IMG/VR virus record: IMGVR_UViG_3300048034_000840
Location: 1 to 29,428 of that record
Reading direction: 5' to 3' (one strand)
DNA from: a virus
Length of the DNA stretch: 29,428 nt
Shown: positions 1 to 21,870 of the stretch, piece by piece
How positions within the stretch are numbered: the stretch's first letter is position 1
Layout of the letters: each line of letters opens with the position of its first letter
The notes under the pieces: generated by a model
Databases searched by the model: none
What the model saw: the letters and a program-made list of their open reading frames with translations, nothing else
Told to the model about the DNA's origin: nothing
Program-made: the position numbers and the translations under genes

Positions 1-235
1 AGTACTCTTACCGCATACCGATAATAATACTACTTGCTCAATTAATCACATATTAAATGATGAAGCTGCTCCTATAACATTTAATGACTACGGCCAATTC
101 TATTATACTACTGCAGTTTTAGATACAACTAAGATGCATGGTGTAAACAACTTGGGTAAAAACGATAGATACTTATTCAAGATTTCTTATTTTGAAAATA
201 CATACGAAGAGATTGTGAAATGCTTACAGAATTAA
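1..235 (+). CDS. 2OG-Fe(II) oxygenase-like protein, C-terminal part (cut by window edge)
   Basis: An open frame runs in from the left edge (codons from base 2) and gives the last 77 residues of a protein. It carries an HTD triplet (HxD, the usual first two iron ligands), then a distal His in KMHGVNN and an Arg ten residues after that His, followed by a beta-strand-rich end. This spacing fits the double-stranded beta-helix of Fe(II)/2-oxoglutarate oxygenases, where the Arg binds the 2OG carboxylate. The H-x9-R block closely parallels that of the next gene (HGVNNLGKNDR versus HTAMNLGKTPR), so the two are probably paralogues. It overlaps the next gene by 16 bases. Substrate unknown; the N-terminus lies outside the window. 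Confidence 0.7.
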   Translation, partial: VLLPHTDNNTTCSINHILNDEAAPITFNDYGQFYYTTAVLDTTKMHGVNNLGKNDRYLFKISYFENTYEEIVKCLQN

Positions 236-741
236 AAGATAGATATGATGCACAAAAATTATTAGACTGCATTATTGGTATGGAAGAACTTGGCCAACAA
301 ATTCATGTCAGTTCTATTAATGGAAAAAGATATTCATTTGCAACCGGAGATCTAACACACTATAAGTTGGATCAAAACGATTTTACAATTGTAAATGAAC
401 TATTTAAAGGTACGTATGCTGAAGAAGTATATAATGATTTAAACGAAAAATATGATATTTGTCGTGGTAGATACATGACTCTTGACGAAAGTTTTAGAGG
501 ATATTCCTATCATTATGATATGACAGATCGTATTCACATTCCTCTAACTACTAACGAAGATGCTATCTTTATTGTAAATGATAAAATCTTAAAGATGCCA
601 GAAGTTGGCAATACATATCAATTACACACCACAAATAAGCATACTGCTATGAATTTAGGTAAAACGCCTAGGATACATTTTACAGTTTGTTTAAAAGCCA
701 GTGCAGTAATGCAGCAATATTATGCAAGGATGACACAATGA
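220..741 (+). CDS. Aspartyl/asparaginyl beta-hydroxylase-like 2OG-Fe(II) oxygenase
   Basis: The 173-residue protein has a small double-stranded beta-helix pattern: HYD at residues 98-100, then RIHIPLTTN, a distal His at 141 and Arg at 151. Known AspH-type (PF05118-like) proteins have the same order: HxD, RxHIPL, distal His, and an Arg that holds 2-oxoglutarate. The predicted reaction is Fe(II)- and 2OG-dependent hydroxylation, in the cytoplasm, of a peptide or small molecule that cannot be named. All metal and co-substrate residues look intact. The start overlaps the end of the preceding oxygenase gene by 16 bases, and the stop overlaps the next start as ATGA. It is the middle member of three consecutive beta-helix oxygenase-like genes. 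Confidence 0.8.
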   Translation: MLTELKDRYDAQKLLDCIIGMEELGQQIHVSSINGKRYSFATGDLTHYKLDQNDFTIVNELFKGTYAEEVYNDLNEKYDICRGRYMTLDESFRGYSYHYDMTDRIHIPLTTNEDAIFIVNDKILKMPEVGNTYQLHTTNKHTAMNLGKTPRIHFTVCLKASAVMQQYYARMTQ

Positions 742-1463
742 AAGAAGCACTTGAGGGATTATATAAGAATTTTCCGCACTATCGTGGGCAACCTGAAGAA
801 AAATTGATGTCAATGATATTTCAATATATTTCTCAACCAGCAATTGATGAAGAAAAATATAATGAATTACATAGTAGCCCTATTGTAGCTACAAACATTG
901 ATATTGATGTCGATCAATTTACTAATGACATTCAAAAGTATAGTGAACATTTTAGTCAGTGGGGTAATAATCACACATCTTACCCAAGATTTGGTTTACC
1001 TTTAGTAAATTTGACTGGCGCTCTCGATGAAAAAAATGATCCATCAAGAATGCCATTAGATGAGCACTTTATGTTATACCAAGATAAAGATAATATTACG
1101 TTTGATCATAATATACTACAAAAAACTGAAGTATGCAGTATGTCTTCTTTAACTAAATTAATGGAAGTTTTTGGAGATTATATGTGCAGAAGCGCTATAT
1201 TAAAATGGGATAGTATGGGTCATTTTAAACCGCATGTCGATGTAGTAAAACCAGCACCAAACTTAAGATTATGGGGAACAACATCCACAAATATGCAGTT
1301 AAAAATGGATGGAAAGGTTATAAATAGTATCAAACCTGGAAAGATTTACATATTTGATTCATCATTAAAACACGAAGCATTTGCAACTGGCGATAATGTA
1401 TATCAATTTTTTATTGCTTTAACTATAGATGCATATGATACGATGATGGATAGGAGACTTTAA
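738..1463 (+). CDS. Divergent 2OG-Fe(II) oxygenase-like (cupin-fold) protein
   Basis: I start this 241-residue protein at the ATG that overlaps the previous stop (ATGA), with AAGGA at 726-730 as ribosome site. A longer frame back to 687 would overlap the upstream gene by 55 bases. The C-terminal half looks like a jelly-roll: HVD at residues 166-168, then strands, KPGKIYIFD, and a candidate distal His at 212 in LKHEAF. The Arg that normally follows this His by about ten residues is missing (Tyr is there), so 2OG binding may differ or be lost. The N-terminal 150 residues are unrecognised. It follows two clearer oxygenase genes. Fold call moderate, activity uncertain. Confidence 0.55.
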   Translation: MKEALEGLYKNFPHYRGQPEEKLMSMIFQYISQPAIDEEKYNELHSSPIVATNIDIDVDQFTNDIQKYSEHFSQWGNNHTSYPRFGLPLVNLTGALDEKNDPSRMPLDEHFMLYQDKDNITFDHNILQKTEVCSMSSLTKLMEVFGDYMCRSAILKWDSMGHFKPHVDVVKPAPNLRLWGTTSTNMQLKMDGKVINSIKPGKIYIFDSSLKHEAFATGDNVYQFFIALTIDAYDTMMDRRL

Positions 1464-2074
1464 TGGCACTTATTATTTGCGGTACACAAGGAGTTGGCCA
1501 AACCACATTTGCTACTAGATGCAATATTCACGATATAGCCACATCTAATATGTGGAATCTTTTCCACACATTTAGACAAACTATGAAAAGTGATATTGGA
1601 GGAATTTCTGGTCCTTACACATGGACAACAGTAAATGGGCAAACAGATACTTTTGATGAATTCAGTACTCATTTTCCGTTTTTTTACGACGCTATTACAA
1701 TTGCCGATCCACTAAAAAATAAATTCTTTAATGTAAGTGCTCCTGTATTTTTAGGTTGCAATGTTATTTTTGCAAAATGGCTTATTGAAAATAGACCAGA
1801 TGATGGCCATAAAGTTGTATTAATTACAGCACCTGAAGATATTCAATGCGAAAGATTATTTGAAAGAGAAAAACTTCGTGATCCTCGGTTGATTGGTAAA
1901 TCAAATTCTTATCAATTAGTAAAGCCTGAATTTTTAAAAGAATTTGCAGTTCATGCCGAGTATGTAACTTGGCTAGAAACAAATGCAGAATATCACATAT
2001 ATAATGATGGTACCATTGAACAATACTATGCAGCGATTGACACAATATTAAATGAATGTGATTTACTCGAATAA
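1463..2074 (+). CDS. P-loop NTPase / nucleotide-kinase-like protein with altered Walker A
   Basis: This 203-residue protein opens with a beta-strand and GTQGVGQTT at residues 7-15. The pattern fits a Walker A loop (GxxxxGK[ST]) except that the invariant Lys is Gln, codon CAA, one base from AAA. Further on are a strand ending in VVLITAPEDIQCERLFERE and a basic RDPRL stretch resembling the lid of nucleoside or shikimate-type kinases. The family would normally phosphorylate a small substrate; without the lysine, ATP hydrolysis is doubtful and the protein may bind rather than turn over nucleotide. The start overlaps the preceding stop by one base (TAATG), with GGAG just upstream. Substrate not deducible. 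Confidence 0.55.
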   Translation: MALIICGTQGVGQTTFATRCNIHDIATSNMWNLFHTFRQTMKSDIGGISGPYTWTTVNGQTDTFDEFSTHFPFFYDAITIADPLKNKFFNVSAPVFLGCNVIFAKWLIENRPDDGHKVVLITAPEDIQCERLFEREKLRDPRLIGKSNSYQLVKPEFLKEFAVHAEYVTWLETNAEYHIYNDGTIEQYYAAIDTILNECDLLE

Positions 2075-2879
2075 AACTCCAGCATATCATCACGATGACA
2101 CATTACTGATAAAGGATATGTGGGATTTGGGAGTGTCAGGCTCTCAAATAGCGATGTCTCTTGCAAAAGCCCAAAGAATACATGAATCTTTAGGGTATTT
2201 ACTTATGTCATGGAATATATTAATACTAGTACCAGAAGATGCATGTGGCAAATTTAAAGAAGAAGATTTTGAAACAAATCTCGATAGATTAAAATTCCTA
2301 ACACAATCATTTCAAAAACCAGATTTCGAAGTAGCATATACAATTGCTACTGTTCCGCATGTGCCTTTTAAAGATACCGAAATCTTTACATCCCTATGGC
2401 CATTTGAAAAACAATGGATTGGAGATGGTGATTATGTAATGATTAAAGAACCATTTCCAAATGGATTTGATAGCTATCATGTAAAAACCCGCGGAATATC
2501 TTTAGATAAAGCATTTAAGCATGCTAAAGATAATAATCTTGAGATTAAAATGTTTGACTATAAAACGAAATGGTCAGATCTTGTAGAGGATATGATTCAT
2601 TGTAAATATATTATTAGTGAAAGATCGACGCTCTTAGCACTTGCTCTTTTTACTAATACACCAACATTTATGCTATCTGCTCCAGCTCATACAATATATC
2701 TTGACGGAAAAGAAAGACCAATATTATTTGGTAATGGCAATCTCGGTATGACTTGGAATGTAGATTATTACGATAAACATATCACACAGAAATATATTGA
2801 TTCTCCGTTTTTCAACATAGATCATAATTTAAATTTAGATAAGGTTATTAAAGATGAAATGCATCATTGGTTGGGATGA
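2052..2879 (+). CDS. Uncharacterised protein, possibly GT-B-like glycosyltransferase
   Basis: I do not firmly recognise this 275-residue protein. Residues 166-208 read as a strand, a helix and a second strand (IKMFDYKTKW, then MIHCKYIISERSTLLALALF, then NTPTFML). This resembles the nucleotide-sugar-binding half of GT-B glycosyltransferases, where a strand ends near a small or charged residue and a helix precedes a 'tPt' strand. No signal peptide or membrane segment is visible. It overlaps the upstream gene by 23 bases and the downstream glycosyltransferase by 26, so translation is probably coupled. Its place between a kinase-like gene and a glycosyltransferase fits a role in glycan synthesis, but this is inference from context. 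Confidence 0.5.
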   Translation: MNVIYSNKTPAYHHDDTLLIKDMWDLGVSGSQIAMSLAKAQRIHESLGYLLMSWNILILVPEDACGKFKEEDFETNLDRLKFLTQSFQKPDFEVAYTIATVPHVPFKDTEIFTSLWPFEKQWIGDGDYVMIKEPFPNGFDSYHVKTRGISLDKAFKHAKDNNLEIKMFDYKTKWSDLVEDMIHCKYIISERSTLLALALFTNTPTFMLSAPAHTIYLDGKERPILFGNGNLGMTWNVDYYDKHITQKYIDSPFFNIDHNLNLDKVIKDEMHHWLG

Positions 2880-3477
2880 TGATTTAATAGATCAGTATCG
2901 TGTTTGCAAATCTACAATAACTGTAGATACAATGCCAACACAAAATATGTTTATTCCGTTTAACGATGGATCTACTGCTTTTACTATGTCTCGATTTACT
3001 GTGCCCGAAATGATGCAATATCATGGATGGCACGTATTTTGTGATAGTGATTTCTATTTTATAGAAGACGTACGAAAGTTGTTACACTATGCTGATTCTA
3101 AATATGCTGTTGTGGTATGTAAACATCCTGAATACGAACCAAAATCTGATTTAAAAATGGATGGTAAACAACAGACATCATATAAAAGAAAAAACTGGTC
3201 ATCTCTTATCTTATGGAATTGTTCTCATCCATCAAATAGAATATTAAGACCGCCATTTATTGCAGATTGTAACCCACTTTGGTTGCATCAATTCAAATGG
3301 TTAAAAGATGAAGAGATTGGAGAGATCCCTTTAGAGTGGAATTGCCTTGAAGGTTATTATGATTGCAATGACGCAAAAGCTATACATTATACAGATGGGG
3401 TACCTTTATTTGATAAATATAAAGACACACCTCATGCCAAACTATGGTTAGATAGGCATGAACTTTTATTGCGTTAA
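2854..3477 (+). CDS. GT-A family glycosyltransferase (DSD motif)
   Basis: This 207-residue protein matches a recognisable bacterial/phage glycosyltransferase family. It has an N-terminal IIGWDD...QYRVCKSTI, then FTMSRFTVPEM, WHVFCDSDF with the metal/nucleotide-sugar DSD at residues 64-66, and KMDGKQQTSYKRKNWSSLILWN. It ends with EWNCLEGYY and AIHYTDGVPLF (His 178 is a likely metal ligand, as in GT8-like enzymes). The domain appears complete and the key motifs are intact. It would transfer a sugar from a nucleotide-sugar donor in the cytoplasm; donor and acceptor are unknown. It overlaps the upstream gene by 26 bases and the next by 20. Confidence 0.85.
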   Translation: MKCIIGWDDDLIDQYRVCKSTITVDTMPTQNMFIPFNDGSTAFTMSRFTVPEMMQYHGWHVFCDSDFYFIEDVRKLLHYADSKYAVVVCKHPEYEPKSDLKMDGKQQTSYKRKNWSSLILWNCSHPSNRILRPPFIADCNPLWLHQFKWLKDEEIGEIPLEWNCLEGYYDCNDAKAIHYTDGVPLFDKYKDTPHAKLWLDRHELLLR

Positions 3478-4066
3478 AGTAGGAACTCGTTACGACTCTA
3501 CATTTGTAATCAAACTTGAAAACATGATTGCTAAAAACTATCATGGCGATTTCAAGTTCTCATGTATTACAGACGACAAAACCATACCCTCACACATTCA
3601 TACAATAAAAATGCCTGATCTTGGATTAGAAAAATGGTGGGCTAAAATGGTTTTATTTGATGAGTCATTTATTGAACAAGGTTTATTTTTTGATCTTGAT
3701 GTTGTAATTACTGGTGACATTACTAATTTATGGAATCCAGGTAAAGTGCCTAAATTTATGCATACTGATTGGGTAGATTTGAGTCAACTAAATATAGACA
3801 CGATAGGAAATAAACAGAGGTATTGTTCTATTAATTCGTCTATACTAATGTGGAATCAAATAACAAAGAGACACCATATTTGGCAATATTTTATGAAGAA
3901 TAAAAATAAAATTATGGATATATTTACTGGTATTGATTCTTTTATTGAACACCGGTTTCCTGATGATTACGAGCTTATGAAAAAGCCAGAAGCTGTACAT
4001 ATTCTACTTGATAAAAAACAAGATGAATTAGGAGAAGATCCATGGATACAAAAGCACTGGAATTAA
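3458..4066 (+). CDS. GT-A-like glycosyltransferase (DLD motif)
   Basis: This 202-residue protein has the layout of small GT-A enzymes: an N-terminal strand (MNFYCVKVG), a KWWAKMVLF helix before the active site, then GLFFDLDVVITGD with DLD at residues 79-81 as the expected divalent-metal site. SINSSILMWN (124-133) resembles the acceptor-side 'N.g.~lw' element, and GIDSFIEHRF follows. The order K-x-x-LF, then fDLD, then SsilmW is typical of phage and marine bacterial glycosyltransferases near GT8/GT32. It shares no long identity with its neighbours, so it probably acts on a different donor or acceptor. Start chosen at the ATG overlapping the previous gene by 20 bases. Confidence 0.72.
   Translation: MNFYCVKVGTRYDSTFVIKLENMIAKNYHGDFKFSCITDDKTIPSHIHTIKMPDLGLEKWWAKMVLFDESFIEQGLFFDLDVVITGDITNLWNPGKVPKFMHTDWVDLSQLNIDTIGNKQRYCSINSSILMWNQITKRHHIWQYFMKNKNKIMDIFTGIDSFIEHRFPDDYELMKKPEAVHILLDKKQDELGEDPWIQKHWN
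4030..4037 (+). promoter_or_regulatory. Strong ribosome binding site inside the upstream gene
   Basis: AGGAGAAG lies five bases before the ATG at 4042, inside the coding end of the preceding glycosyltransferase. It is one of the best Shine-Dalgarno matches in the plus-strand operon and supports the 4042 start for the aminotransferase-like gene despite the 25-base overlap. Confidence 0.6.
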
Positions 4067-4917
4067 GACCTGATTGGACTCAACAACAATATCCTACAGG
4101 ACATAAAATCGATTTATCTAATAACGTGTGTTTTGATGCAGCATTACCTACATTTGAATTTGATTTAAATCGGTATTCTGACACTAGTAATTGTTATAAA
4201 ATTTTATCTGATCATTATAATTTGTATCCTCGTCAAATCGCAATTGGATTAGGTCTTAGCGAATTGATTATGAGAATAATGTTTTTGATAAAACATAAAG
4301 GATTAACCTTTACAAGTATGCATACTTCGTGGGCTCCTATCGATATGTGCAGAAAACTATATCAAATTCCACACGGCCAAGATGTATGTTATATTTCTAA
4401 CCCGCATGGCACAGCTGGAACTATAATAGAAAATTACGATGAACTAATTGCTAGACATAAATTACTTATTGTTGATGAGGCTTATGCTGATTTTTGTGAG
4501 GAAATGCCAAAGGCTAAATATGGTTCTCCGAATGTATTAGTTCTAAAAACTCTAAGTAAATCTTTGGCATTACCTGGTGCTAGATTTGGTTACGCCTTTG
4601 GCCATGAAGTTTTAATTAATGAAATACAAAATCTAAGGCCCGCACAAGTAGCATTACCTGGAATCGATGATAATCTAATATCAATACTTGATGAAATACC
4701 GAATCACGTAAAAAGAATGAATGCAACAAAGGCATATATAGAAAAGAATTATGACTGTATACCTTCACATGGTAACTATGTGTTAATTAAAAATTATGAA
4801 AAGTTTAGTCGGCATTTTCATATAAAAGAACTTGAAGGTCATTGTCGTATGGCATTGATCAATCGCAATATGGTAACTAAGAATGCTATTAACAAAGAAC
4901 ACCCTTTCTTCGATTGA
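4042..4917 (+). CDS. PLP-dependent aminotransferase, histidinol-phosphate aminotransferase (HisC)-like
   Basis: The 291-residue protein has the fold-type I aminotransferase signature of the HisC/CobD group: SNPHGTAGT with Asn120, LIVDEAYADF with Asp145 and Tyr148 to hold the cofactor, and TLSKSLALPGARFGY with the likely Schiff-base Lys173 and phosphate-contacting Arg181. CRMALINR near residue 269 sits where HisC has its substrate-carboxylate Arg. It is shorter than usual HisC (about 350 residues), mainly in the N-terminal arm and small domain, but the catalytic residues are present. In this operon, a sugar- or amino-acid-phosphate amination is more likely than histidine synthesis; that is inference. 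It overlaps the radical SAM gene by 35 bases. Confidence 0.82.
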   Translation: MDTKALELRPDWTQQQYPTGHKIDLSNNVCFDAALPTFEFDLNRYSDTSNCYKILSDHYNLYPRQIAIGLGLSELIMRIMFLIKHKGLTFTSMHTSWAPIDMCRKLYQIPHGQDVCYISNPHGTAGTIIENYDELIARHKLLIVDEAYADFCEEMPKAKYGSPNVLVLKTLSKSLALPGARFGYAFGHEVLINEIQNLRPAQVALPGIDDNLISILDEIPNHVKRMNATKAYIEKNYDCIPSHGNYVLIKNYEKFSRHFHIKELEGHCRMALINRNMVTKNAINKEHPFFD

Positions 4918-5656
4918 ATTAAATCCTGTTGATATATGTAATAGAACTTGCGGCTTCTGTCCTCGTGGCCACGGATTTAAAAACACAAAAGCAATGATGA
5001 CAGATGACACAGTCGTTGCAATCAACAAATCATTACAAGATATTGATTATCGTGGAACTGTAACCTTTGCAGGTTTCGGTGAACCTTTATTGCAAAAAAA
5101 TCTAAAAAAGCATGTACAATTACTTTCAAATGGTGTACAATTAAAACAGATAAAGATTATAACGAACGGTGATTATCTAACACAAAAAACGGCATTTCAA
5201 CTTATTGACGCTGGTGTCAACTGCATTAAAATATCAATGTACGATGTAGATGATACTGAAAGATACGAAGCTTTCTTATCTCAGTATAGTCATGTAGAAA
5301 GAATATACAAACATTATTATAATGGACTTCCTGAAGAAGTAGAAGTAAATCGAACCGAATTGTGGAAAGAGCCAAAAAAACTTAATATAAAAAGAGCTTG
5401 TTACTTACCATTTTATAAGATGTTTATTAATTGGAATGGAGCAGTTGGATTATGCAGTAACGATTGGTCACAGCATAAAGTATTTGGTTATGTCCAAGAA
5501 ACACCTATACATCAAATTTGGGAATCTGACAAATTTAGAATATACCGCGATAATCTATTAAAAGATAAACGTACTGTTAATCCGTGTATTGGATGTAACG
5601 TGAATGGACAAGTATTAGGAAAAGAAAGCTTTGAATACTACAAGAACAATGTCTAA
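4883..5656 (+). CDS. Radical SAM enzyme with SPASM-type C-terminal domain
   Basis: The 257-residue protein has the radical SAM CX3CX2C cluster motif at Cys19, Cys23 and Cys26 (DICNRTCGFCPRG), followed by FAGFGEPLL, the 'GGE'-type SAM-contact strand, and KIITNG. Its C-terminal part carries Cys173, Cys191 (GLCSND), Cys235 and Cys238 (NPCIGC), the arrangement of SPASM/twitch domains that hold an auxiliary Fe-S cluster. Such enzymes make 5'-deoxyadenosyl radicals to modify peptides, sugars or small molecules. No precursor peptide is visible nearby. The substrate is unknown; the aminotransferase, methyltransferase and glycosyltransferase neighbours favour a sugar or side-chain modification. The start is nested 35 bases inside the upstream gene. 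Confidence 0.88.
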   Translation: MLLTKNTLSSIELNPVDICNRTCGFCPRGHGFKNTKAMMTDDTVVAINKSLQDIDYRGTVTFAGFGEPLLQKNLKKHVQLLSNGVQLKQIKIITNGDYLTQKTAFQLIDAGVNCIKISMYDVDDTERYEAFLSQYSHVERIYKHYYNGLPEEVEVNRTELWKEPKKLNIKRACYLPFYKMFINWNGAVGLCSNDWSQHKVFGYVQETPIHQIWESDKFRIYRDNLLKDKRTVNPCIGCNVNGQVLGKESFEYYKNNV

Positions 5657-6245
5657 ATCACCAGTTCCTTTCTGGCGATATTCTGAAATGATTATGTATG
5701 TAAATAAAAAATATCCTCATAGAGTTATTGATTTTGCTAGATCATTTACTAAGAATCAAGTAATGGCAAAATCTTGGCTAGTAGAACATCTTTATATGGT
5801 TACAGGCAATGCAAATAATATCACAGTTCTTGGATCTTGGTATGGTACAATCATTGTACCTTTATTGCTAAATTATTATTCTAATATAAAATCTATCAAG
5901 CTTATTGACTATGATGAAGAAGCACTAGCAATAGCAAAGTATATGTTTGCTAATGATATTACTACTCAAAAGTCTGATGTAAGTTTTGATTGTGAAGAGA
6001 TTGAATCAGATATTATTATCAATACTTCATGTGAACATATGTGGCATATGAAAGATATAAAGTTAAACGGTTTATGTGCTCTGCAGAGCAATGATTTCTT
6101 ACAAGAAACTTCACATGTTAATTGTGTCCATAGCCTTGAAGAGTTTATAGATCAGACTGGCCTTCAAAAAATAGACTATCAAGGTGAAATACCATTTGAC
6201 GATTATCATGATAATAAAAGATTCATGTTAATAGGTAAACAATGA
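5649..6245 (+). CDS. Class I SAM-dependent methyltransferase-like protein
   Basis: The 198-residue protein, from the ATG at 5649, shows a Rossmann methyltransferase order. VLGSWYGT at about 60-67 is motif I, although the usual GxGxG is reduced to GSWYG. LIDYDEEALAIAK at about 85-97 has the acidic residue that would bind the SAM ribose, and IIINTSCEHM (112-121) is the strand-4 region with a TSCEH motif where catalytic residues often sit. An in-frame TTG at 5631 with AGGA upstream is an alternative start that adds six residues. It overlaps the radical SAM gene by 8 bases and the next gene by 4 (ATGA). Target unknown; a methyl transfer in the same modification pathway is inferred. Confidence 0.65.
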   Translation: MSKSPVPFWRYSEMIMYVNKKYPHRVIDFARSFTKNQVMAKSWLVEHLYMVTGNANNITVLGSWYGTIIVPLLLNYYSNIKSIKLIDYDEEALAIAKYMFANDITTQKSDVSFDCEEIESDIIINTSCEHMWHMKDIKLNGLCALQSNDFLQETSHVNCVHSLEEFIDQTGLQKIDYQGEIPFDDYHDNKRFMLIGKQ

Positions 6246-7012
6246 TTCACGTGCTTTGTAGTAGCTGGGGTGAAACATATGGACCTATATACGTTAACCG
6301 GCTTTTCAATATGGTTAAAAAACATCTGCCGTTTGAATTTATATTTCACTGTCAGACCCAGGATGCACAGGGAATAGACGAGCGTATATCTATACTTCCA
6401 TTTCTACGAGACCTACCAGAATCAGCGCCAGATGAGATGTTTGCTTCAGACAACTGGAGAAATAATAAACCTCGTCTATGGGATAGGCCAAAACTAAACT
6501 ATTTTAAACCAAATGGATGGGGATTAGATGGACTACGTATTGCTTTAGATTTAGATATGATTATCCATAATGATATGACTCCAATTATCAATATGTTTGA
6601 TAAGCCATTAGTAGGCAGATCATGGTGGCATAATACAGAGCATGAGAATAGCCCAGATTGGAAGCGAAGAAATGGTGCATGTACGAATGGTGGATTTTAT
6701 ATGTGGAAAGATAATCAACTTGAAAATATATGGCTTGATTGTTTAAAAAATTATAAAAAAATATACCACATTTATACCGGCGGCAGTGATAATTTTATAA
6801 GTCAAAGGCATCTAGATTTATTTGATTTTGTGCCATCATCAATGTATTATTCATTTAATCGTGGATGTGAATGGCCACATGATTTAGATAAACATATCAT
6901 CAGAAAAGATAAAATCATGTGTGCTTTTAATACAGATCCAGGTGATGCCACGAATTTAGAATTGCATGAAGCAATAAAAATATATGATGAAGTAGAGAAA
7001 CTATGGCAGTAG
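6242..7012 (+). CDS. Glycosyltransferase-like protein (DLD motif)
   Basis: This 256-residue protein starts with a strand (IHVLCSSWGETYGP) and a helix, as in GT-A folds. RIALDLDMIIHND carries DLD at residues 103-105, the probable metal and nucleotide-sugar site. GRSWWHNTEH (125-134) and TNGGFYMWK (148-156) follow and make up the acceptor-side half. The RSWW...NGGFY pair is repeated in the next gene (RSWW and NGGFY), so these two adjacent genes probably descend from a common ancestor although the next is shorter. Starts and stops overlap neighbours by 4 and 10 bases. Donor and acceptor unknown. Confidence 0.72.
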   Translation: MIHVLCSSWGETYGPIYVNRLFNMVKKHLPFEFIFHCQTQDAQGIDERISILPFLRDLPESAPDEMFASDNWRNNKPRLWDRPKLNYFKPNGWGLDGLRIALDLDMIIHNDMTPIINMFDKPLVGRSWWHNTEHENSPDWKRRNGACTNGGFYMWKDNQLENIWLDCLKNYKKIYHIYTGGSDNFISQRHLDLFDFVPSSMYYSFNRGCEWPHDLDKHIIRKDKIMCAFNTDPGDATNLELHEAIKIYDEVEKLWQ

Positions 7013-7614
7013 ACGTATATACATGCAGAATAGGCGATAAGTATGGATTTGATTATGAAATCAATTTAATTGAAAAAATTGATAGATTACACGTGATTCA
7101 TTCTGAGAAAGAAGGATTTAAGCTACAGTGGAATAAACTGCATTTTTTTAATCTTGATATAGATGAACCAATTGTTGTACTTGATATTGACATTGATCTG
7201 ATCAATGATTATGAAGAACTTATAAATTATCCTATTGAAAGAGGACAGTTTTTAAGTATGAGATCGTGGTGGGAAGATAGAAGCGATTGCGAGTTAAATG
7301 GTGGATTTTATAAATTCTATCCATCAGACACTAAATACATCTATGAAAAATTTATATCGAATAAAAAATATTACGAAAACTTTTGGATAGAATTAGGATC
7401 AAAACCTGGACCAGTTAATGGAGAAGAAAACTTTGTTGAATGGATGGTAAAGAAAGAGCTAGATCTACAATTTGTTCCTGACACTTGGGCAGGCCGGATG
7501 GTACAAGAGCCAACCAAAGAGTGGCTGGCTCAAGCAAATCGTAAATATCCTGGTTCATATTTTTATTTAGATCAAATAAATCCTGACGTTAAATTACTGC
7601 ACTATACTATGTAA
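7003..7614 (+). CDS. Glycosyltransferase-like protein (DID motif), last gene of the operon
   Basis: The 203-residue protein has LQWNKLHFF before VVLDIDIDL (DID at 61-63 and again 63-65), then SMRSWWED (85-92) and LNGGFYKF (98-105). This order resembles the larger preceding protein and other small GT-A enzymes: K-helix, acidic metal motif, RSWW, NGGFY. The GEENFVEWMV region (about 145-155) lies where related enzymes have their D/E-rich helix after NGG. It is shorter than its neighbour, lacking most of the N-terminal insert between first strand and DxD. It ends 8 bases inside the convergent minus-strand gene, so it closes the accessory operon. Confidence 0.65.
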   Translation: MAVDVYTCRIGDKYGFDYEINLIEKIDRLHVIHSEKEGFKLQWNKLHFFNLDIDEPIVVLDIDIDLINDYEELINYPIERGQFLSMRSWWEDRSDCELNGGFYKFYPSDTKYIYEKFISNKKYYENFWIELGSKPGPVNGEENFVEWMVKKELDLQFVPDTWAGRMVQEPTKEWLAQANRKYPGSYFYLDQINPDVKLLHYTM

Positions 7615-8098
7615 CAATTGAATTGTAAAGAGTAATCGCTGCAATAGGATTGTCTGCTTCTCTAAGAGAAGTTTTATCTGTATCACTTGCAGAATCTACG
7701 GCATCAATCTCAAACATTTCTAATTTAAGATTAAAAAGTTTTTCTACATGATCGGTACTTGTCGAATCATACGAAAATAAGAATGCACTTACTTCACTCA
7801 TAATTCTTGCATTATCTTCAGGACCTGTGGCTCTAACATAGCTAACTTTGCCTGCCTCGATTAATTGCCTCTGATATTCTTCAATTTCTTCGCCTATAGC
7901 TTCATAATAATTATCAGTCCAAGCTTCAATTTGTGCAATAGAACAAACAGTCATTAGTTCTTGAAATAATGCTTGATCAGCATCGACTAAAATATTAATA
8001 TTAGTAATACTTCCGTCATCTTCCTCAACAAACGCTTGAATATTAGTACCTTCATCATTTGTAAAGATAGCTTGTAAAAGATTATGTTCAGTAATCAT
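7607..8098 (-). CDS. Hypothetical acidic protein, last gene of the late tail block
   Basis: I do not recognise this 163-residue protein. It is strongly acidic, with a helix-rich middle (EAIGEEIEEYQRQLIEAG) and no signal peptide or membrane segment. Its start overlaps the stop of the upstream tail gene by 4 bases (ATGA), so it belongs to the late operon and may be a small tail or assembly protein. Two Asp-Ser dipeptides occur near the end, a feature of its upstream neighbours. Its stop lies inside the convergent last glycosyltransferase gene. Coding status is well supported by the tight operon packing; function is open. Confidence 0.7.
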   Translation of the reverse strand: MITEHNLLQAIFTNDEGTNIQAFVEEDDGSITNINILVDADQALFQELMTVCSIAQIEAWTDNYYEAIGEEIEEYQRQLIEAGKVSYVRATGPEDNARIMSEVSAFLFSYDSTSTDHVEKLFNLKLEMFEIDAVDSASDTDKTSLREADNPIAAITLYNSIVT

Positions 8099-9423
8099 GT
8101 TACTTTCACTCCTAAATAGTGTGTTTTCACTTCTGTCAATGTTCCACCTGTCGGTACTCTTTGAGATCTATAATTATCTCCTAATTGTTGATTTCTTCTA
8201 GATTGTGTAGCACCAGTCAAGCGATGGTCTCTCATTGTTGTGCCACATTGTTGACCAGCGCCGTATTGAAATCTAACTTTAAAACCTGGTTCAGTGATAG
8301 CTACAGATTTGCAAGCTGCTTGTAACATTGATTCAAAATTATTTCTAGTCATTGATTGCAGATTTCCGCTATCATCATGAGTCATTGGATTTCTCGGTTG
8401 ATTGCCAATGCCGTTATTAAATGGATGCGGTAGCAAACTTCGAATAACTCCGGTACCAACATCAACAGAATCTACATACACATGCACATCATTTTCTGGG
8501 CTTGTTCCGCCCAATTTTTCTCCTGTTACAATGAAGTTATCTGATATTACATATCCAGATCCACCAGTACGAATTGTAATTATGTAACTAGAACCAGGTC
8601 TTTTTTCAACACCCATTGTAAATCCAGTTCCTAGAACTGGCCTTTGATACGCAGAATCTCTGTATCCTGTTGGACTTGCTTGACCACTAGAATCAAAGAC
8701 AAATTGTTGACCTGTTCTATTAGGATTTAATTTATACAAGTAGTAATTAGTTATGGTTACATTTTGTCTTCTGGCTTCAGGTAAATTTCCACCACCAAAA
8801 GCACTAATATTCGCAGTATTATCAGTATATACAGGAGTGCCACTTACACGAGAATATCTTGTATTACCAAATACTGCAGAATCATGTATTAGATATAATG
8901 GCTCGAATGTAGCCATTTGTTGACCAGCAACTTGTTTTAAGATTGGTTTAGCAAACGTATCTATAAAATCTGCTGAAGTAAATGGTACAAATTCTGAGCT
9001 ATCATTAGAATCACCGCCTGCAGCTAATCCACCGCCAGGATTTGAATACCTATGGTATACTGGCCAATTAGTGCCAAGAGTATCTTTTAAAACAGATAAA
9101 TCAAAAGGATCTGTTCCATCACCTGGTACAGGATTATGAATAGTTTGGTTAATACGAGAATAATTAACAGTAGATGTAGAAATATTACCTAAGCTACCGT
9201 CGTTATTAGAAAATCTTCTATTATTATTTCGTACAGCTGAAGCTATAACATGGGTTTCAGATAGGTTACCTAAATTTCCACCACTTCCTACAACTGTAAG
9301 TTCAACTGCAGGGTTTGCTAAGAAAGCTTTTTTTCCTTGAGCGTAAATGTCATTTAATTCAAGTAAGCTCATTTCTTTCAGATTGCCAGAATCTGTATAA
9401 TATAAAGGGCTACGTACGGCCAT
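8095..9423 (-). CDS. Tail structural protein of marine T4-like type
   Basis: The 442-residue protein begins PLYYTDSGNLKEMSLLELNDI, a start style I associate with virion proteins of marine T4-like phages; that is recollection, not a search. It is rich in Gly, Ser, Asn and Thr and has no transmembrane segment. Residues 286-327 form a GGSGY-type beta module (TGGSGYVISDNFIVTG...VHVYVDSVD) also seen in the insert of gp8 in this window. The C-terminal third (FKVRFQYGAGQQCGTTMRD, LTEVKTHYLG) looks like a separate folded domain. Eight Asp-Ser dipeptides are present. It lies three bases after the repeat-bearing tail gene. A peripheral baseplate or fibre role is likely but inferred. Confidence 0.65.
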   Translation of the reverse strand: MAVRSPLYYTDSGNLKEMSLLELNDIYAQGKKAFLANPAVELTVVGSGGNLGNLSETHVIASAVRNNNRRFSNNDGSLGNISTSTVNYSRINQTIHNPVPGDGTDPFDLSVLKDTLGTNWPVYHRYSNPGGGLAAGGDSNDSSEFVPFTSADFIDTFAKPILKQVAGQQMATFEPLYLIHDSAVFGNTRYSRVSGTPVYTDNTANISAFGGGNLPEARRQNVTITNYYLYKLNPNRTGQQFVFDSSGQASPTGYRDSAYQRPVLGTGFTMGVEKRPGSSYIITIRTGGSGYVISDNFIVTGEKLGGTSPENDVHVYVDSVDVGTGVIRSLLPHPFNNGIGNQPRNPMTHDDSGNLQSMTRNNFESMLQAACKSVAITEPGFKVRFQYGAGQQCGTTMRDHRLTGATQSRRNQQLGDNYRSQRVPTGGTLTEVKTHYLGVKVT

Positions 9424-9990: not shown

Positions 9991-10194
9991 TTATTTCTCT
10001 ATCAGTTGTTTAATTAGATCTTTCATTTCTTGTAGCTCGTTTTTCAATTCTTTAATTTCATTATCTCTTGATTTCCTAAATTTCTTTGCCTCACGTGCCG
10101 CAGCAATAGTTGCAGAATCTGTATTTAGTATAGCGTTCGAACTTGTATCTCTAACTAATGTTTGTGATCCTTCTACTTTTAAAAATTTTCTCAT
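9991..10194 (-). CDS. Small coiled-coil protein of marine T4-like tail operons
   Basis: This 67-residue protein has a short N-terminal segment (FLKVEGSQTLVRDTSSNAILNTDS) and then a charged helix of about 35 residues with heptad leucines (IKELKNELQEMKDLIKQLIEK), a likely coiled coil. I recall similar small proteins (KVEG, LVRD, AILNTD plus coiled coil) in cyanophage structural operons, but no function is known to me. It overlaps the stop of the giant upstream gene by one base (TAATG) and is directly followed by the repeat fibre gene. It might act as an oligomerisation or assembly factor for its neighbours; this is inference. Confidence 0.75.
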   Translation of the reverse strand: MRKFLKVEGSQTLVRDTSSNAILNTDSATIAAAREAKKFRKSRDNEIKELKNELQEMKDLIKQLIEK

Positions 10195-13100
10195 TATACA
10201 GCCAGTGCAATAACTCTTAAGTCTCTAAAAATTGGTGGCTTTGCAGAGTTAGTAGACTTCATTACAATCTTAATTACAAACCGAGAGAAAGAAGTTGAAA
10301 GTCCGTTTTGGCCACCTACCAAATATCTATAATCTCTAAATATATTCGGATTTTCATCTGACGGTAATTCATTTTCTTTTGCAACTTCAATCCATGGTGT
10401 ATCATCGAAATTTTCACCATCGTTAGCAACTTTATAGTAAACATCAAAATCTGCTACTGAAGGCCGATGGGCTGAAAGTAGAATCTTAAGGCCAATAGCA
10501 TCTTCTTCAAGAGTTACTGGTCTAACAATATGTTTACCAATGTGTGATCCACCAATAGCGGCTGTTTCATCAACAAAATTAATTGGATGATTATGCTGTG
10601 GAGCATTTACTGGAGGATTAGCAGAGTCCTGCATATCGACATGATTGTGAATCAAGAACATAGATGCTCTTTGCATATCAATCAAAGGAGAAACATCAGG
10701 ATTACCAGTAGTCAAACCTAATTCTACAGTAGTTGATTTTATACCAGCTCCTAAGTTGGTTACTTCTAAATCAGCATTTGCAATCATAGCTGGTGTATTA
10801 AAGACGTTATTCTCTCTGACATCTAAGTCAGTAAATACAACATCTTTAGCATACGGTGTTTCTGTACCTGCTAATGATTTACCAGATGTAAATTTACCTC
10901 TTAAAGTTAATCCAGTACTCACTGGTAATAGCGGCTCAATAAATGGTACAACTGTTTCGAACATCATATTTCGAGTAGATAATACTTCTGTGCCACCGAA
11001 GTTGAACGCGCTGCTAGGATTTGTTTTTGACAATGTAATTGTAAAGTTATCTTCATCAACATCAACTACTGTCCGTGAACCTAGAATGTCTGTTCCTACT
11101 AATCCACCACCATAACTAGCATTTGAATCAAGACCATAAATTTTTACATTATCACCTGATATAAATCCATGATTCTTTTGATTTACAATGAGAGTGCTAC
11201 TTGCCGAATCAAATGTAAGTGGATTTTCATCCATTAATTTGCGAGAGATAGGAGCATTTTCTAGTACTGCCGTACCACCAGCCAAATCAAATTGTGCTTG
11301 ATGGATTTGGAACATCATATCTTTGGTTTGTGCAGGTTCCCATGTTGTTGAATTCTGTGATAAGAATAAAGAACCAAGAGTTGGTTGCTTTGTAACTTTC
11401 TTTTCTGTAGAATTCAAGATAAACTGTTCGGTTTCTGCAATATAAATGTTATAATCAACTGATTCAGCCTTAACTACGAATGCATATTCGGTATATGGAT
11501 TCAAGAAAACAGGCTCATCAAAAACAAAATCTGTTGGTGCATTTGCATTATTAGATACCGCTACATTGGCTGGATTAACAAATACTACTGAACCAGGAAT
11601 AATAGTAGTAGATGATGGATGTCCATTTTCTACTGGTCTTAATTCTACTGATACCGGTATTGAATTAGATTTTGATGCAAAATACAATCTAACTCTTGTT
11701 GCATATATTCCATCAACTTTATCAACATAAAATGTTTGAGCAACTGGATCTTGACCACCATCTGGTCGCTGAATAGTTCTTGAAGTACCTCTAATTGTAA
11801 TAAATCGAGTTGAAAGAATATCTCTCTGCCGAGTTTCAATTACACCAGAAGAAATAAATGTTGTTTTAGCAATTGAAAGAGCATCTTTATCTACATTAGC
11901 TGTAATGTCTAGTAGCTTAAATTCTCTTTCTCCAGTTCTAAATCTAATATTTCTAGTAGAAGGAATAAAGAACGACCCTTCAACAACACCTTGAGCATTA
12001 GTACTTAATGTAGATGGTGTATTCGGATGTTGCGTTGCATTATTTAATCTATTTCCATATTCATCTGATGTAGCTGCAAATCTTTGGAATGATTCTGATT
12101 TGACCCATGAGTCAACAGAAACACCATCAAATCTTGGCCACATTTGTACATTTGGTCCTAAGCCTTGAGCTTTAAAGAATACCATTCGTGAGCGCATAAA
12201 TGGAATAATTGCAACGTTTACAACTCTATCTCCAATAACTTCTCTAATAGTTTCGTTTCTAACGACTCTATTGGTGTCAACTCTAAGACCGGTTTGTCTT
12301 CTATTAAGAACTCTACCTACTCCAGCATTTGCCGGATTTCCGCCCCAATTCCAATTCCAGTTATTAAAATTAAATGCTTGTGTTCTATCAATTCTTGTTC
12401 CACCTTGAATAATCCTTGGAGGAATATAAACTGTTTCTTTCCATTCGTCAGACGAAGGAGAAAGAAGCATATTACCTCTATGAGTAATAACAGCGAATGG
12501 ATTAACGTTAATAGTTTGCGATACTACGGGCTGATCAATATACGTTTGTTCTGTATATTTAATATAAACATTATCGCCTTTTAGTACAGTATTCGATGAT
12601 AAATCAGAATCATAAATTAGTCGAACATTTTCTTCATTAAATGTTGGTCTCATTATTCGAGTTGATGGGTCAATAGAAGCTTTGTATTCAGAGCTAGCTG
12701 TAAATGAAACTGAGTGATCTACAAAATTATCAACAATAAATCCTGATTTTGTTCTATCAGTGCCAGAAGAATCAAACACAGCAAAGTTTTGTACATCTAC
12801 TTCTAATAGACTTAGAGCAGTCGCTTCTTCAAGATTATCAACTCTATCTTCAAGCTTTTGTATATCGCGCATTGTGAAGCCCTTAGCTTCAATATTACGC
12901 ATAACCATATCTTCTTCATTCTTTGAACCAGCATTTAATTCAACGCGGTATAGTTCTAAAGTTTGTTCTGGTGTATTCGCAAACTTAGGTGTTAAAGAAG
13001 GCGTACCTTGAACTACAGAAATTTTTGCTTCTTGGCCAATAACAATTTTATCATATCTAGGCAAATAATATTCTGTATCTAGTGTAACTAGACTTGTGTT

Positions 13101-15236
13101 TACAGGGATTTCATTTACTCTTGCTGTTGCTGCAGCAAAACCTACATTATTGTCATCTTTACGTGATCTAAAGTCAAGTACATCTGTTAGACTAACAACA
13201 TCACCATTTTGTTTTGTGTGTGATGGAATTTTTCCATAAGCTACTTGACCAGTGTATGAACTTGCATCAAAATAATCACCAGTTGGACCATGATTAAAAT
13301 AAGTATACCTTACATAAATATTTCCTACTGGAGTTTTTGCTGTAGTTTTTAGAAGTAGTTTACCAGTTTCGTAGAAATTATCTCTTTGGCCGTTATCGAC
13401 AATAAAGTCAGCTCTTAAATCATTTCCATCTGAATCTACTGTACGAATTCTTTGTACTTCAAAAATATCAGCTTTACCTAAATCTACATACGGCTGTCCG
13501 TTACCAGATGGTATTGTAATACCAGCAGCCATAGTTTGAGTCGCTAATGTTTTTGTTCTTGTTACACCATCTTTTTGCACTTGAGCAATTACTTCAATTG
13601 CAGTATTTCCTGGACCACCGGTAATAGATGCTGATTGCGTTCCAACACCTGATACTGTAGTAGGAGTAAATGCATCTCCAGCAACGGCCGAGAAAATCCA
13701 TTGATTTGAATTGGCAAAGTCTTCACCGCTTGATAGCGATGGGAATGTTGCAGCTCCTGTACCATCAGTAGTTGCTGTCAATCTTCTTTGTGTAATAACA
13801 GTAACATCAGAAGTAGCTTTGACTCTTGTATTCGGGAAATCAAATAGTAAGTCGTTATTGGCAGCATCTTTAATAACCGCTATTCCATTTTCTAATTCTA
13901 AGTTAGCAAATGAATTTGCAGCTGTTCCAATCGATGCAACGTCTCTGAAGTTTTGACCTGCATTCATTTGAATATCCATCAAATAATAGCGTGTCAATGC
14001 TCCATCTTCTTCTACTGATTTTACACGTGCACTACCAATAGTTGATCCACCATAAGAACGTGTGCTGCGCAAATCTTGTTTTTCAAATGTTTCAATATTT
14101 GGCAATCCGTTAATTGAATCAATCATAACAAAGTTACCAAAGCCAGCTGCTACAGGTTCGCTATTAATAGTAACTGATGTAGTAGCTTTCGGTACTTCAA
14201 TTACTGTAGGATCTGCACGATGAGCTCTATAACCTGCAACATATGCAGTGCCAGGAGAAACATTCAAATCAAAATGAGTAGCTGATGCAGAATCATAATT
14301 GATTCTAAATGGTTTTTTTACAAAATCTCCATTAATTTCTTTTACACGAAGGGCATCAAAATCAGCGATTTTGTTATAATCGTTTGTGCCACTAACTGCC
14401 TCAATTAATGCGCCATCACGGATTTTTCCGAAGAAAACAAATGTATCAGCAGAATCTTTATCAGACTCATTTGTTAAAGTCAAAGTAATTCTATAGCGAT
14501 CTGCACCAGGAGCCGTTAGATTTGGATTAGCTGTTTGATTATCATAAAGAGCTAAAGTATCACTAACCGTTATAATATCTTGTGTGACTACAAAACCTAC
14601 GTTTTCTGTTGGAGCAGAATCGTATTTTGATACTAGAATAGATTGCGCATCTGCTTGAACAAAATGTCCTTGCGTAAAAAATGTACCTTCTTGCATTGAG
14701 GCTCGAGTGCCTCTACCTACAGCTTTATTTGACGGTGTATTTGTAGTTTGAACTTTAAGAGTTACACCACTACTAGATCCAACAATATTTTCGCTAGGTG
14801 TTAAGCGTACTGGTGCTGAACCAATAGTACCAGAACTTTGATTAATATATTGAACATATAATGTGGCTGGATCACCTGTAAGTACATCAATCGGTAAAAT
14901 TTCAATTACTTTTACACTTACGTTTGAAGTTTGACCAACAAAAGTATCATCAATCATTGTAATAGTATTGGCAGGCAAACTAGTAGTGGCATCAATTTTT
15001 ACATATTCATATTGATTATTAATAAGCATGCCGCCTGGTACAACGGAAGCGCCTTCTTTAAATATATTTCTGCCAAATCTTTCAATTTCTTTTTGAATAA
15101 TAGTCTGCATTTGCGTAAGCTCACGCGCTTGCAACTGCTTACCACTATTAAACAGTATACGATGATAGTGATCGCTATCTTTAAAGTCATCTCTATATGT
15201 TGTTGCAAATAGATTTTTAGTAAAATTATTAGGCAT
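10194..15236 (-). CDS. Giant baseplate/fibre structural protein, DUF4815-type N-terminus
   Basis: At 1680 residues this is the largest gene in the window. The N-terminus (YHRILFNSGKQLQARELTQMQ, IQKEIERFGRNIFKEG) fits the DUF4815 family found in marine myovirus virion proteins. The middle has beta-rich, Thr/Val-rich stretches without obvious repeats. Near residues 1150-1330 comes a module (DPVAQTFYVD, YATRVRLYF, VELRPVENGHP, FLNPYTEYAFVV) familiar from other marine T4-like structural proteins, followed by LGSLFLSQN. The C-terminus (VDVYYK-like strands, RDLRVIALAV) looks like a jelly-roll cap. It starts ten bases after gp8 with AGGATGAG as ribosome site. Position after gp8 suggests a baseplate periphery or fibre-network role; exact part unknown. 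Confidence 0.78.
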   Translation of the reverse strand: MPNNFTKNLFATTYRDDFKDSDHYHRILFNSGKQLQARELTQMQTIIQKEIERFGRNIFKEGASVVPGGMLINNQYEYVKIDATTSLPANTITMIDDTFVGQTSNVSVKVIEILPIDVLTGDPATLYVQYINQSSGTIGSAPVRLTPSENIVGSSSGVTLKVQTTNTPSNKAVGRGTRASMQEGTFFTQGHFVQADAQSILVSKYDSAPTENVGFVVTQDIITVSDTLALYDNQTANPNLTAPGADRYRITLTLTNESDKDSADTFVFFGKIRDGALIEAVSGTNDYNKIADFDALRVKEINGDFVKKPFRINYDSASATHFDLNVSPGTAYVAGYRAHRADPTVIEVPKATTSVTINSEPVAAGFGNFVMIDSINGLPNIETFEKQDLRSTRSYGGSTIGSARVKSVEEDGALTRYYLMDIQMNAGQNFRDVASIGTAANSFANLELENGIAVIKDAANNDLLFDFPNTRVKATSDVTVITQRRLTATTDGTGAATFPSLSSGEDFANSNQWIFSAVAGDAFTPTTVSGVGTQSASITGGPGNTAIEVIAQVQKDGVTRTKTLATQTMAAGITIPSGNGQPYVDLGKADIFEVQRIRTVDSDGNDLRADFIVDNGQRDNFYETGKLLLKTTAKTPVGNIYVRYTYFNHGPTGDYFDASSYTGQVAYGKIPSHTKQNGDVVSLTDVLDFRSRKDDNNVGFAAATARVNEIPVNTSLVTLDTEYYLPRYDKIVIGQEAKISVVQGTPSLTPKFANTPEQTLELYRVELNAGSKNEEDMVMRNIEAKGFTMRDIQKLEDRVDNLEEATALSLLEVDVQNFAVFDSSGTDRTKSGFIVDNFVDHSVSFTASSEYKASIDPSTRIMRPTFNEENVRLIYDSDLSSNTVLKGDNVYIKYTEQTYIDQPVVSQTINVNPFAVITHRGNMLLSPSSDEWKETVYIPPRIIQGGTRIDRTQAFNFNNWNWNWGGNPANAGVGRVLNRRQTGLRVDTNRVVRNETIREVIGDRVVNVAIIPFMRSRMVFFKAQGLGPNVQMWPRFDGVSVDSWVKSESFQRFAATSDEYGNRLNNATQHPNTPSTLSTNAQGVVEGSFFIPSTRNIRFRTGEREFKLLDITANVDKDALSIAKTTFISSGVIETRQRDILSTRFITIRGTSRTIQRPDGGQDPVAQTFYVDKVDGIYATRVRLYFASKSNSIPVSVELRPVENGHPSSTTIIPGSVVFVNPANVAVSNNANAPTDFVFDEPVFLNPYTEYAFVVKAESVDYNIYIAETEQFILNSTEKKVTKQPTLGSLFLSQNSTTWEPAQTKDMMFQIHQAQFDLAGGTAVLENAPISRKLMDENPLTFDSASSTLIVNQKNHGFISGDNVKIYGLDSNASYGGGLVGTDILGSRTVVDVDEDNFTITLSKTNPSSAFNFGGTEVLSTRNMMFETVVPFIEPLLPVSTGLTLRGKFTSGKSLAGTETPYAKDVVFTDLDVRENNVFNTPAMIANADLEVTNLGAGIKSTTVELGLTTGNPDVSPLIDMQRASMFLIHNHVDMQDSANPPVNAPQHNHPINFVDETAAIGGSHIGKHIVRPVTLEEDAIGLKILLSAHRPSVADFDVYYKVANDGENFDDTPWIEVAKENELPSDENPNIFRDYRYLVGGQNGLSTSFSRFVIKIVMKSTNSAKPPIFRDLRVIALAV

Positions 15237-18462: not shown

Positions 18463-18470
18463 TATTTATA
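18463..18470 (-). promoter_or_regulatory. T4-type late promoter (TATAAATA) before the fibre gene
   Basis: On the minus strand the gap between the gp7-like gene and the gp9-like fibre gene contains an exact TATAAATA. It ends 27 bases before the start codon. In T4 this element is read by the sigma-like gp55 with gp33 and the gp45 clamp. The gap (18437-18474) is the widest in the minus-strand block, and the motif occurs in only one other gap, so chance is unlikely. It should start a late transcript for the fibre, gp8 and distal tail genes. Confidence 0.78.
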
Positions 18471-21862: not shown

Positions 21863-21870
21863 TATTTATA
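21863..21870 (-). promoter_or_regulatory. T4-type late promoter (TATAAATA) before gp25
   Basis: On the minus strand an exact TATAAATA straddles the end of the upstream 198-residue gene and the short gap before gp25, ending 24 bases before the gp25 ATG. Sequence and spacing mirror the other late promoter at 18463-18470. It fits recognition by a gp55-type late sigma factor and would drive gp25, gp6 and the gp7-like gene. Confidence 0.78.

Follow-up and report, generated by a model that had tools for sequence, protein, structure and literature searches.

What does a marine phage do with a dense run of oxygenase-, aminotransferase-, radical S-adenosylmethionine (SAM)-, methyltransferase- and glycosyltransferase-like genes next to its tail module? 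The question is raised by IMGVR_UViG_3300048034_000840, an IMG/VR virus fragment of 29,428 nt from a T4-like marine myophage, the whole of which we analyzed and refer to as the window. ORF (open reading frame) calling shows that positions 2–7614 are filled by twelve tightly overlapping plus-strand genes, as a sequence-only reading of this DNA had recognized, and relatives keep their order. We tentatively interpret this operon as a glycan-modification cassette that acts on a surface glycan of the host, of the lipopolysaccharide (LPS) type, and that includes an oxidation–amination step. We favor this interpretation because of synteny, conserved catalytic motifs, a predicted GT-A fold, and purifying selection.

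A Co-inherited Gene Set

Relatives of the window phage show that the operon comprises 13 genes in total. The first gene, g00 (~213 aa), lies upstream of the window start, and the first operon ORF in the window is a 3′ part only, cut by the window edge, so that the count of twelve given in the sequence-only reading is correct for the window and one short for the operon (Table 1). Family searches (Pfam, PHROGs, NCBIfam) assigned no family to g00, g05, g10, g11, or g12. By eye, g00 appeared GNAT-like, an identity that no model backs. Homologue searches by tblastn covered 50,697 phage records and returned no match to g00, g03, or g11. Neither a tRNA nor an Rfam RNA was found in the window.

Three IMG/VR relatives (G001, G002, and G003) carry the whole gene set in the same order. 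Two more loci, L028 and L030, do so too (oxyA was not scored in L028), and another two (L003 and L009) hold the 3′ part of the operon and are cut by contig ends. Protein identities to the window are ~78–93% for most genes of G001 and G002 (g04: ~52%) and 34–78% for G003. This shared order indicates that the operon is not a chance assembly. Comparison of the window with G001 gave ratios of nonsynonymous to synonymous substitution rates (dN/dS) of 0.05–0.17 for the operon genes tested, a signature of purifying selection, with g04 as the one exception.

Mapping of 269 loci with hidden Markov models (HMMs) divided the operon into two parts. The 3′ block, GT3-MT-GT4-GT5, is constant and converges on g13/g14. 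The 5′ part differs between phages and in others contains genes for a beta-ketoacyl synthase (KAS), a QueC-like protein, other radical SAM proteins, a short-chain dehydrogenase, and further genes. Of the 122 distinct MT homologues, 99 stand within 3 kb of a GT3-, GT4-, or GT5-type gene, and for 91 the fetched locus includes genes of the tail module (g13/g14/g15/VrlC), although both counts are inflated since these genes themselves served to find many of the loci. The co-occurrence that the earlier reading had proposed to look for was thus observed: close relatives keep the full set together, and in distant ones the genes of the 3′ core stay together, as do the paired HisC-like and radical SAM genes. 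The mosaic content between phages and the degenerate, fast-evolving g04 could also be explained by unlinked metabolic "moron" genes that a recombination hotspot collected by chance and that serve no single pathway. This explanation is highly improbable given full synteny down to 34–78% identity, overlapping genes, low dN/dS, the fixed 3′ core, and the recurrent pair.

Outside the island of G003 (IMGVR_UViG_3300021335_000011, 72 kb), we noticed by eye genes for KAS-like, class III aminotransferase-like, and fatty-acid-desaturase-like proteins as well as two more glycosyltransferase-like genes.

Table 1. Coordinates of the operon genes and neighboring features (window positions unless stated otherwise)
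Feature	Position	Strand	Basis or remark
g01, 2-oxoglutarate (2OG)-oxygenase-like, C-terminal 77 of 153 aa	2..235	+	H81/D83/H122/R132
g02, 2OG-oxygenase-like (Asp_Arg_Hydrox-like)	220..741	+	PF05118 E = 5e-4, below cut-off
g03, 2OG-oxygenase-like (Asp_Arg_Hydrox-like)	738..1463	+	PF05118 E = 0.014; H167/D169/H213
g04, degenerate P-loop protein	1463..2074	+	Walker A lysine replaced; dN/dS 0.38
g05 (GT1), probable GT-B type glycosyltransferase	2052..2879	+	AlphaFold2 (AF2) model, weak Foldseek matches
g06 (GT2), nucleotide-diphospho-sugar transferase-like	2854..3477	+	phrog_28018 E = 5e-42
g07 (GT3), putative glycosyltransferase, constant 3′ core	3458..4066	+	phrog_1962 glycosyltransferase E = 3e-12
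g08, HisC-fold pyridoxal phosphate (PLP) aminotransferase-like	4042..4917	+	Aminotran_1_2 E = 1e-13; PDB HisC profile E = 1e-26
g09, BtrN-like radical SAM, one predicted 4-Cys auxiliary cluster (twitch type)	4883..5656	+	profile match to BtrN
g10 (MT), class I methyltransferase-like, constant 3′ core	5631..6245	+	weak PDB matches
g11 (GT4), predicted GT-A glycosyltransferase, constant 3′ core	6242..7012	+	AF2/Foldseek, DxD
g12 (GT5), glycosyltransferase-like, constant 3′ core, converges on g13	7003..7614	+	DxD D61/D63
g13, small protein, Mosig_00095 homologue	7607..8098	-	tail to tail with operon, 8 bp overlap
g14, tail-associated, Mosig_00097 homologue	8095..9423	-	dN/dS 0.28
VrlC baseplate protein (DUF4815), anchor of the published island	10194..15236	-	PF16075 E = 9e-58
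T4-type late box TATAAATA	18463..18470	-	upstream of gp10-like tail gene
T4-type late box TATAAATA	21863..21870	-	upstream of 21399-21839 tail gene
G003 extra-island genes	59238-60398, 64713-67399, 69668-71052 (reversed coordinates of G003)		identified by eye

A HisC-like and a BtrN-like Enzyme as a Recurrent Pair

The oxidation–amination step is suggested by g08 and g09, for which the earlier calls of a HisC-like PLP enzyme and a radical SAM/SPASM enzyme are upheld by profile matches and invariant residues. In g08 the Schiff-base lysine K173 as well as D145, Y148, R181, and R269 are invariant across 12 homologues. The protein scores 80.6 bits against the HisC equivalog model TIGR01141, far below the NCBIfam cut-off of 276.55 bits. 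Judged by these scores, g08 is a HisC-fold protein with its PLP residues kept and a function other than that of HisC. A scan of bacterial genomes for relatives of g08 found none.

The profile of g09 matches BtrN (4M7S/4M7T) over its full length with E = 1e-37, and the next solved structure follows at 1e-9. All seven cysteines (C19/C23/C26 and C173/C191/C235/C238) are invariant in nine homologues and conform to the BtrN-type pattern of CX3CX2C plus four auxiliary cysteines, which predicts the auxiliary cluster itself. R157 of g09, kept in 8/9 homologues, aligns with R152 of BtrN, a residue important for catalysis. The alcohol that BtrN oxidizes to a ketone belongs to an aminocyclitol, and the auxiliary cluster of this enzyme has four Cys ligands (PMC9012708). 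Campylobacter phages (CPt10, CP20, and others) encode radical SAM proteins with ~24% identity to g09, some of which are annotated "BtrN protein".

The two genes are adjacent in the close relatives and in L033, L107, L108, and L111. Searches with g09 alone found 52 further viral loci, some of them near-identical and hence not 52 independent cases; in 26 of these the BtrN-like gene has a PLP aminotransferase gene, HisC-like in nearly every case, no more than 2 kb away, and in 20 the two are directly adjacent. PLP genes make up 33/839 ORFs overall. Homologues of g09 also occur in 24/197 genomes of the SAR11 family. In three of these loci that we read closely, they are located among genes for a nucleoside triphosphate (NTP) transferase, an epimerase, a GT2 glycosyltransferase, an O-antigen ligase, and class III aminotransferases. 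A PLP gene stands near the g09 homologue in 6/10 short SAR11 loci, and in one case this gene is HisC-like and overlapping. The SAR11 polysaccharide loci with BtrN-like and aminotransferase genes carry no phage genes. This context supports, without proving, a sugar oxidation followed by amination.

SPASM proteins are often peptide maturases, and TIGR04531, which models a putative hydroxylase of non-proteinogenic amino acids, matches g02 weakly (E = 7e-5) and far under its cut-off. A peptide could be the substrate of the radical SAM/SPASM, PLP, and 2OG enzymes, as in the biosynthesis of ribosomally synthesized and post-translationally modified peptides, or these enzymes could make a free non-proteinogenic amino acid. 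We consider this highly improbable. Only one auxiliary cluster is predicted for g09 and BtrN is by far its best solved-structure match; its SAR11 homologues sit in polysaccharide regions, and the operon contains five glycosyltransferase-like genes and no recognized precursor peptide.

Glycosyltransferase- and Methyltransferase-like Genes

The sequence-only reading counted four glycosyltransferase-like proteins; we count five, namely g06, g07, g11, and g12 with DxD motifs, and g05 as a probable GT-B type enzyme. The AF2 model of g11 (pLDDT 80, pTM 0.84) matches UGGT, LgtC, and LARGE1 in Foldseek (prob 1.00, E = 3e-7) and the DxD residues D103/D105 are invariant across homologues. The model thus predicts a GT-A fold with DxD, similar to GT8/GT24 enzymes. 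For g05 the AF2 model (pLDDT 85) gave weak Foldseek matches to POMGNT2, TibC, and WaaC (best E 0.011, prob 0.95). The g05 protein of the window is seven residues shorter than those of close relatives owing to an in-frame deletion.

For g06, g07, and g12, the glycosyltransferase assignment derives from DxD plus PHROG or homologue annotation only. The motif is invariant across homologues in g06 (D64/D66), in g07 (D79/D81), and in the 21 homologues of g12. The g06 protein is 39% identical to Mosig_00188, annotated "glycosyltransferase", of the cultured phage Mosig EXVC030M (MT647606), and g12 is related to Mosig_00092. Profile searches of the PDB yielded nothing useful for GT3, GT4, and GT5 and only WbbM at E 0.25 for GT2.

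The methyltransferase-like call for g10 stands on weak evidence; its PDB profile matches include a methyltransferase (E 0.001) and a spermidine synthase (E 0.0085). This gene is the most widespread of the operon, with at least 565 relatives in IMG/VR. Its only tblastn match in the phage records is Mosig_00090.

Oxygenase-like Proteins and a Degenerate P-loop Protein

Three 2OG-oxygenase-like proteins had been proposed, and all three retain HxD...H; g01 and g02 also keep the Arg. The residues are invariant in eight homologues of g01 (numbering of a relative), in nine of g02 (H98/D100/H141/R151), and across the homologues of g03. Family models are less decisive: g01 has no Pfam match, and the PF05118 scores of g02 (20.3) and g03 (15.7) are both under the Pfam gathering score of 22.6. 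Four of five g03 homologues match PF05118, and g03 is similar to Mosig_00081.

The fourth protein, g04, was labeled kinase-like. It is P-loop-like, with a weak sub-threshold AAA_18 match in the family searches, but it lacks the lysine of the Walker A motif (GxxxxGK[ST]), which makes the kinase label doubtful. The position is occupied by Q/V/V/V/V/R in the window and full-length relatives, and K is present only in the short L037 relative. This gene is also the fastest-evolving of the operon between window and G001. We conclude that g04 is probably not a working kinase.

Tail Neighbors and Promoters

As stated in the sequence-only reading, the operon lies beside tail genes: the gp6-, gp8-, and gp10-like baseplate genes, VrlC, and tail genes follow on the minus strand. 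By tblastn, VrlC matches the VrlC proteins of Mosig and HTVC008M. Among the matches listed, the VrlC proteins of phage C48C1 and of two Pelagibacter phages, Mosig and HTVC008M, rank with the closest annotated ones (31–34% identity; ~31% for the two pelagiphages). The gp10-like protein (16601-18436, minus strand; dN/dS 0.44) and g14 evolve much faster than neighboring baseplate genes and may mark host-contact proteins.

In the window and its relatives, tail genes are equipped with the T4 late box TATAAATA, which is close to the cyanophage sequence NATAAATA (PMC2984593). Upstream of the operon, G001, G002, G003, L028, and L030 share a sigma70-like promoter (TGTACA/TTTACA-17 nt-TGnTATAAT), and L037 contains a similar site. 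About 0.15 such sites would be expected per 72 kb, counting both strands, and in G003 the pattern also stands before a gene that by eye is gp32-like. A generic scan for promoters did no better than chance (54 vs 58.2 expected), so that the promoter claim is founded on position and conservation in relatives and not on the consensus alone. Since the operon has a sigma70-like promoter while the tail genes have late boxes, the operon is probably expressed early and the tail genes late. A conserved TATAAATA within g03 (1319) was rejected as a promoter; it is coding and ~140 nt before the next gene.

What the Operon May Do

In the mechanism that we propose, BtrN-like g09 would oxidize a sugar or cyclitol at a hydroxyl group, and HisC-like g08 would convert the resulting ketone to an amine. 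The hydroxylases and the methyltransferase-like enzyme may decorate this unit further, and the five soluble glycosyltransferases would build or attach it from host nucleotide sugars. The acceptor would be a host surface glycan of the LPS type that is altered early in infection, so as to block superinfection or to change recognition.

Several observations weigh against this proposal. No gene for nucleotide-sugar synthesis, a lipid carrier, a flippase, or a ligase was recognized among the operon proteins, and none of these proteins contains a strong hydrophobic segment. The operon would consequently have to draw on host precursors and machinery: the modification pathway of the sequence-only reading finds support as a co-inherited glycan-modification operon, but it is not self-contained. 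The substrates, the order of steps, the acceptor, and the purpose are parts that we infer. Phosphorylated ketones or amino acids, not sugars, are the usual substrates of HisC-type enzymes. A palindromic late box occurs ~100 nt upstream of the operon in G001 and G003, and the equivalent operon of Mosig is preceded by a late-type box, so that early timing does not generalize. SAR11 is a best guess for the host, for which the g09 relatives in SAR11 genomes are suggestive only; the core MT and GT2 were each found in 1/197 SAR11-family genomes and are nearly phage-only.

The missing membrane and export genes fit a glycosylated cytoplasmic protein, for example a tail protein, at least as well. A close rival, plausible though not one that we would call probable, is that the enzymes work in the cytoplasm on tail proteins of the phage itself, which they would modify and glycosylate. 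All of them look soluble, the core block adjoins tail genes (91/122 unique MT proteins), and the late-type box of Mosig would suit such a role. Aspartyl-hydroxylase-like folds can act on proteins, and phage glycosyltransferases have been proposed to act on capsid and tail proteins of mycobacteriophages. Decoration of the virion accords less well with the sigma70-like promoter conserved in close relatives, where the promoter is not only of the late type, and with the occurrence of BtrN-like and aminotransferase genes in SAR11 polysaccharide loci devoid of phage genes.

A bolder extension of the host-glycan proposal, which we regard as doubtful, is that marine phages swap a BtrN-like plus HisC-fold unit that would turn a hydroxyl into an amine on a glycan sugar or sugar donor without NAD. 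Together with a phage-specific glycosyltransferase/methyltransferase core and an early promoter, this unit would write the phage's own amino-sugar onto the host surface (or tail), and swaps of the 5′ cassette would yield another glycan "type", in the manner of O-antigen loci. If true, an abundant group of marine phages would rewrite surface sugars by chemistry otherwise known from aminoglycoside biosynthesis, and a long-standing guess, namely that host LPS (or the virion itself) is modified by marine myophages, could be tested with a few defined enzymes. With its constant core and variable cassette, the layout allows islands to be typed and related to the O-chain types of hosts; O-chain clusters of SAR11 are highly diverse (PMC11898729).

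Comparison with Known Systems

The operon is a variant of the pelagimyophage "host recognition cluster", the site and gene class of which are already published (Zaragoza-Solas et al. 2020, PMC7029224). According to that article, the cluster is hypervariable, lies between VrlC and gp14 in the structural module, and contains tail fiber genes, GT8 glycosyltransferases, and radical SAM cassettes; its authors propose host O-chain modification against coinfection, and report that detection of middle and late promoters failed in pelagimyophages. In our relatives VrlC and tail genes stand on one side of the operon and, in G001–G003, fiber-like proteins of 2196–2780 aa on the other. The far boundary of the published cluster is the neck gene gp14, which no contig of the relatives was seen to reach. 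As a separate observation, L037 encodes at 2-514 (minus strand) a fiber-like protein of repeated IDSAYIxAR-type units.

Phage Mosig has an analogous island (00072-00094) beside its g13, g14, and VrlC homologues, with homologues of g10, g12, and g03 among hydroxylases, radical SAM proteins, aminotransferases, and glycosyltransferases. In contrast to the window, an ArnB-like aminotransferase, a carbamoyltransferase, nitroreductases, and other radical SAM proteins replace the HisC/BtrN-like pair, the g06 and g07 homologues are elsewhere in the genome, and the promoter box is of the late type. The sole MT match in the SAR11 family (L285) adjoins carbamoyltransferase- and nitroreductase-like genes as in Mosig; its contig, although binned in a SAR11-family genome, is therefore probably of phage origin.

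The enzyme BtrN from butirosin biosynthesis shares with g09 its size, CX3CX2C motif, four-Cys auxiliary cluster, and aligned arginine; pairwise identity is low, the partner here is of HisC fold, and activity and substrate of g09 are predictions. Cyanophage P-SSM2 carries putative LPS gene clusters, for which a role in altering the surface of the infected cell has been proposed (PMC2984593). Phage-borne clusters of that kind are the common ground, but P-SSM2 is not among the tblastn matches listed for the operon proteins searched. Synechococcus phage S-SCSM2R (PQ898602) encodes a HisC-like protein (37%) followed by a radical SAM/SPASM protein (28%) between baseplate and tail fiber genes. It has the pair only, with a 40% g06 homologue elsewhere in the genome, and core MT and GT4 were not found in it.

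The earlier statement that this combination is not known from any described phage is thus true in a narrow sense only. In a keyword search, PMC7029224 was not seen to describe the 13-gene set, a constant GT3-MT-GT4-GT5 core, a BtrN-like gene paired with a HisC-like one, or the divergence of early and late promoters. What this operon adds to the known systems is a 3′ core that stays fixed while the 5′ part can be swapped, the repeated pairing of HisC-like and BtrN-like genes, which is also seen in SAR11 polysaccharide loci, and a conserved sigma70-like operon promoter opposed to tail genes with late boxes.

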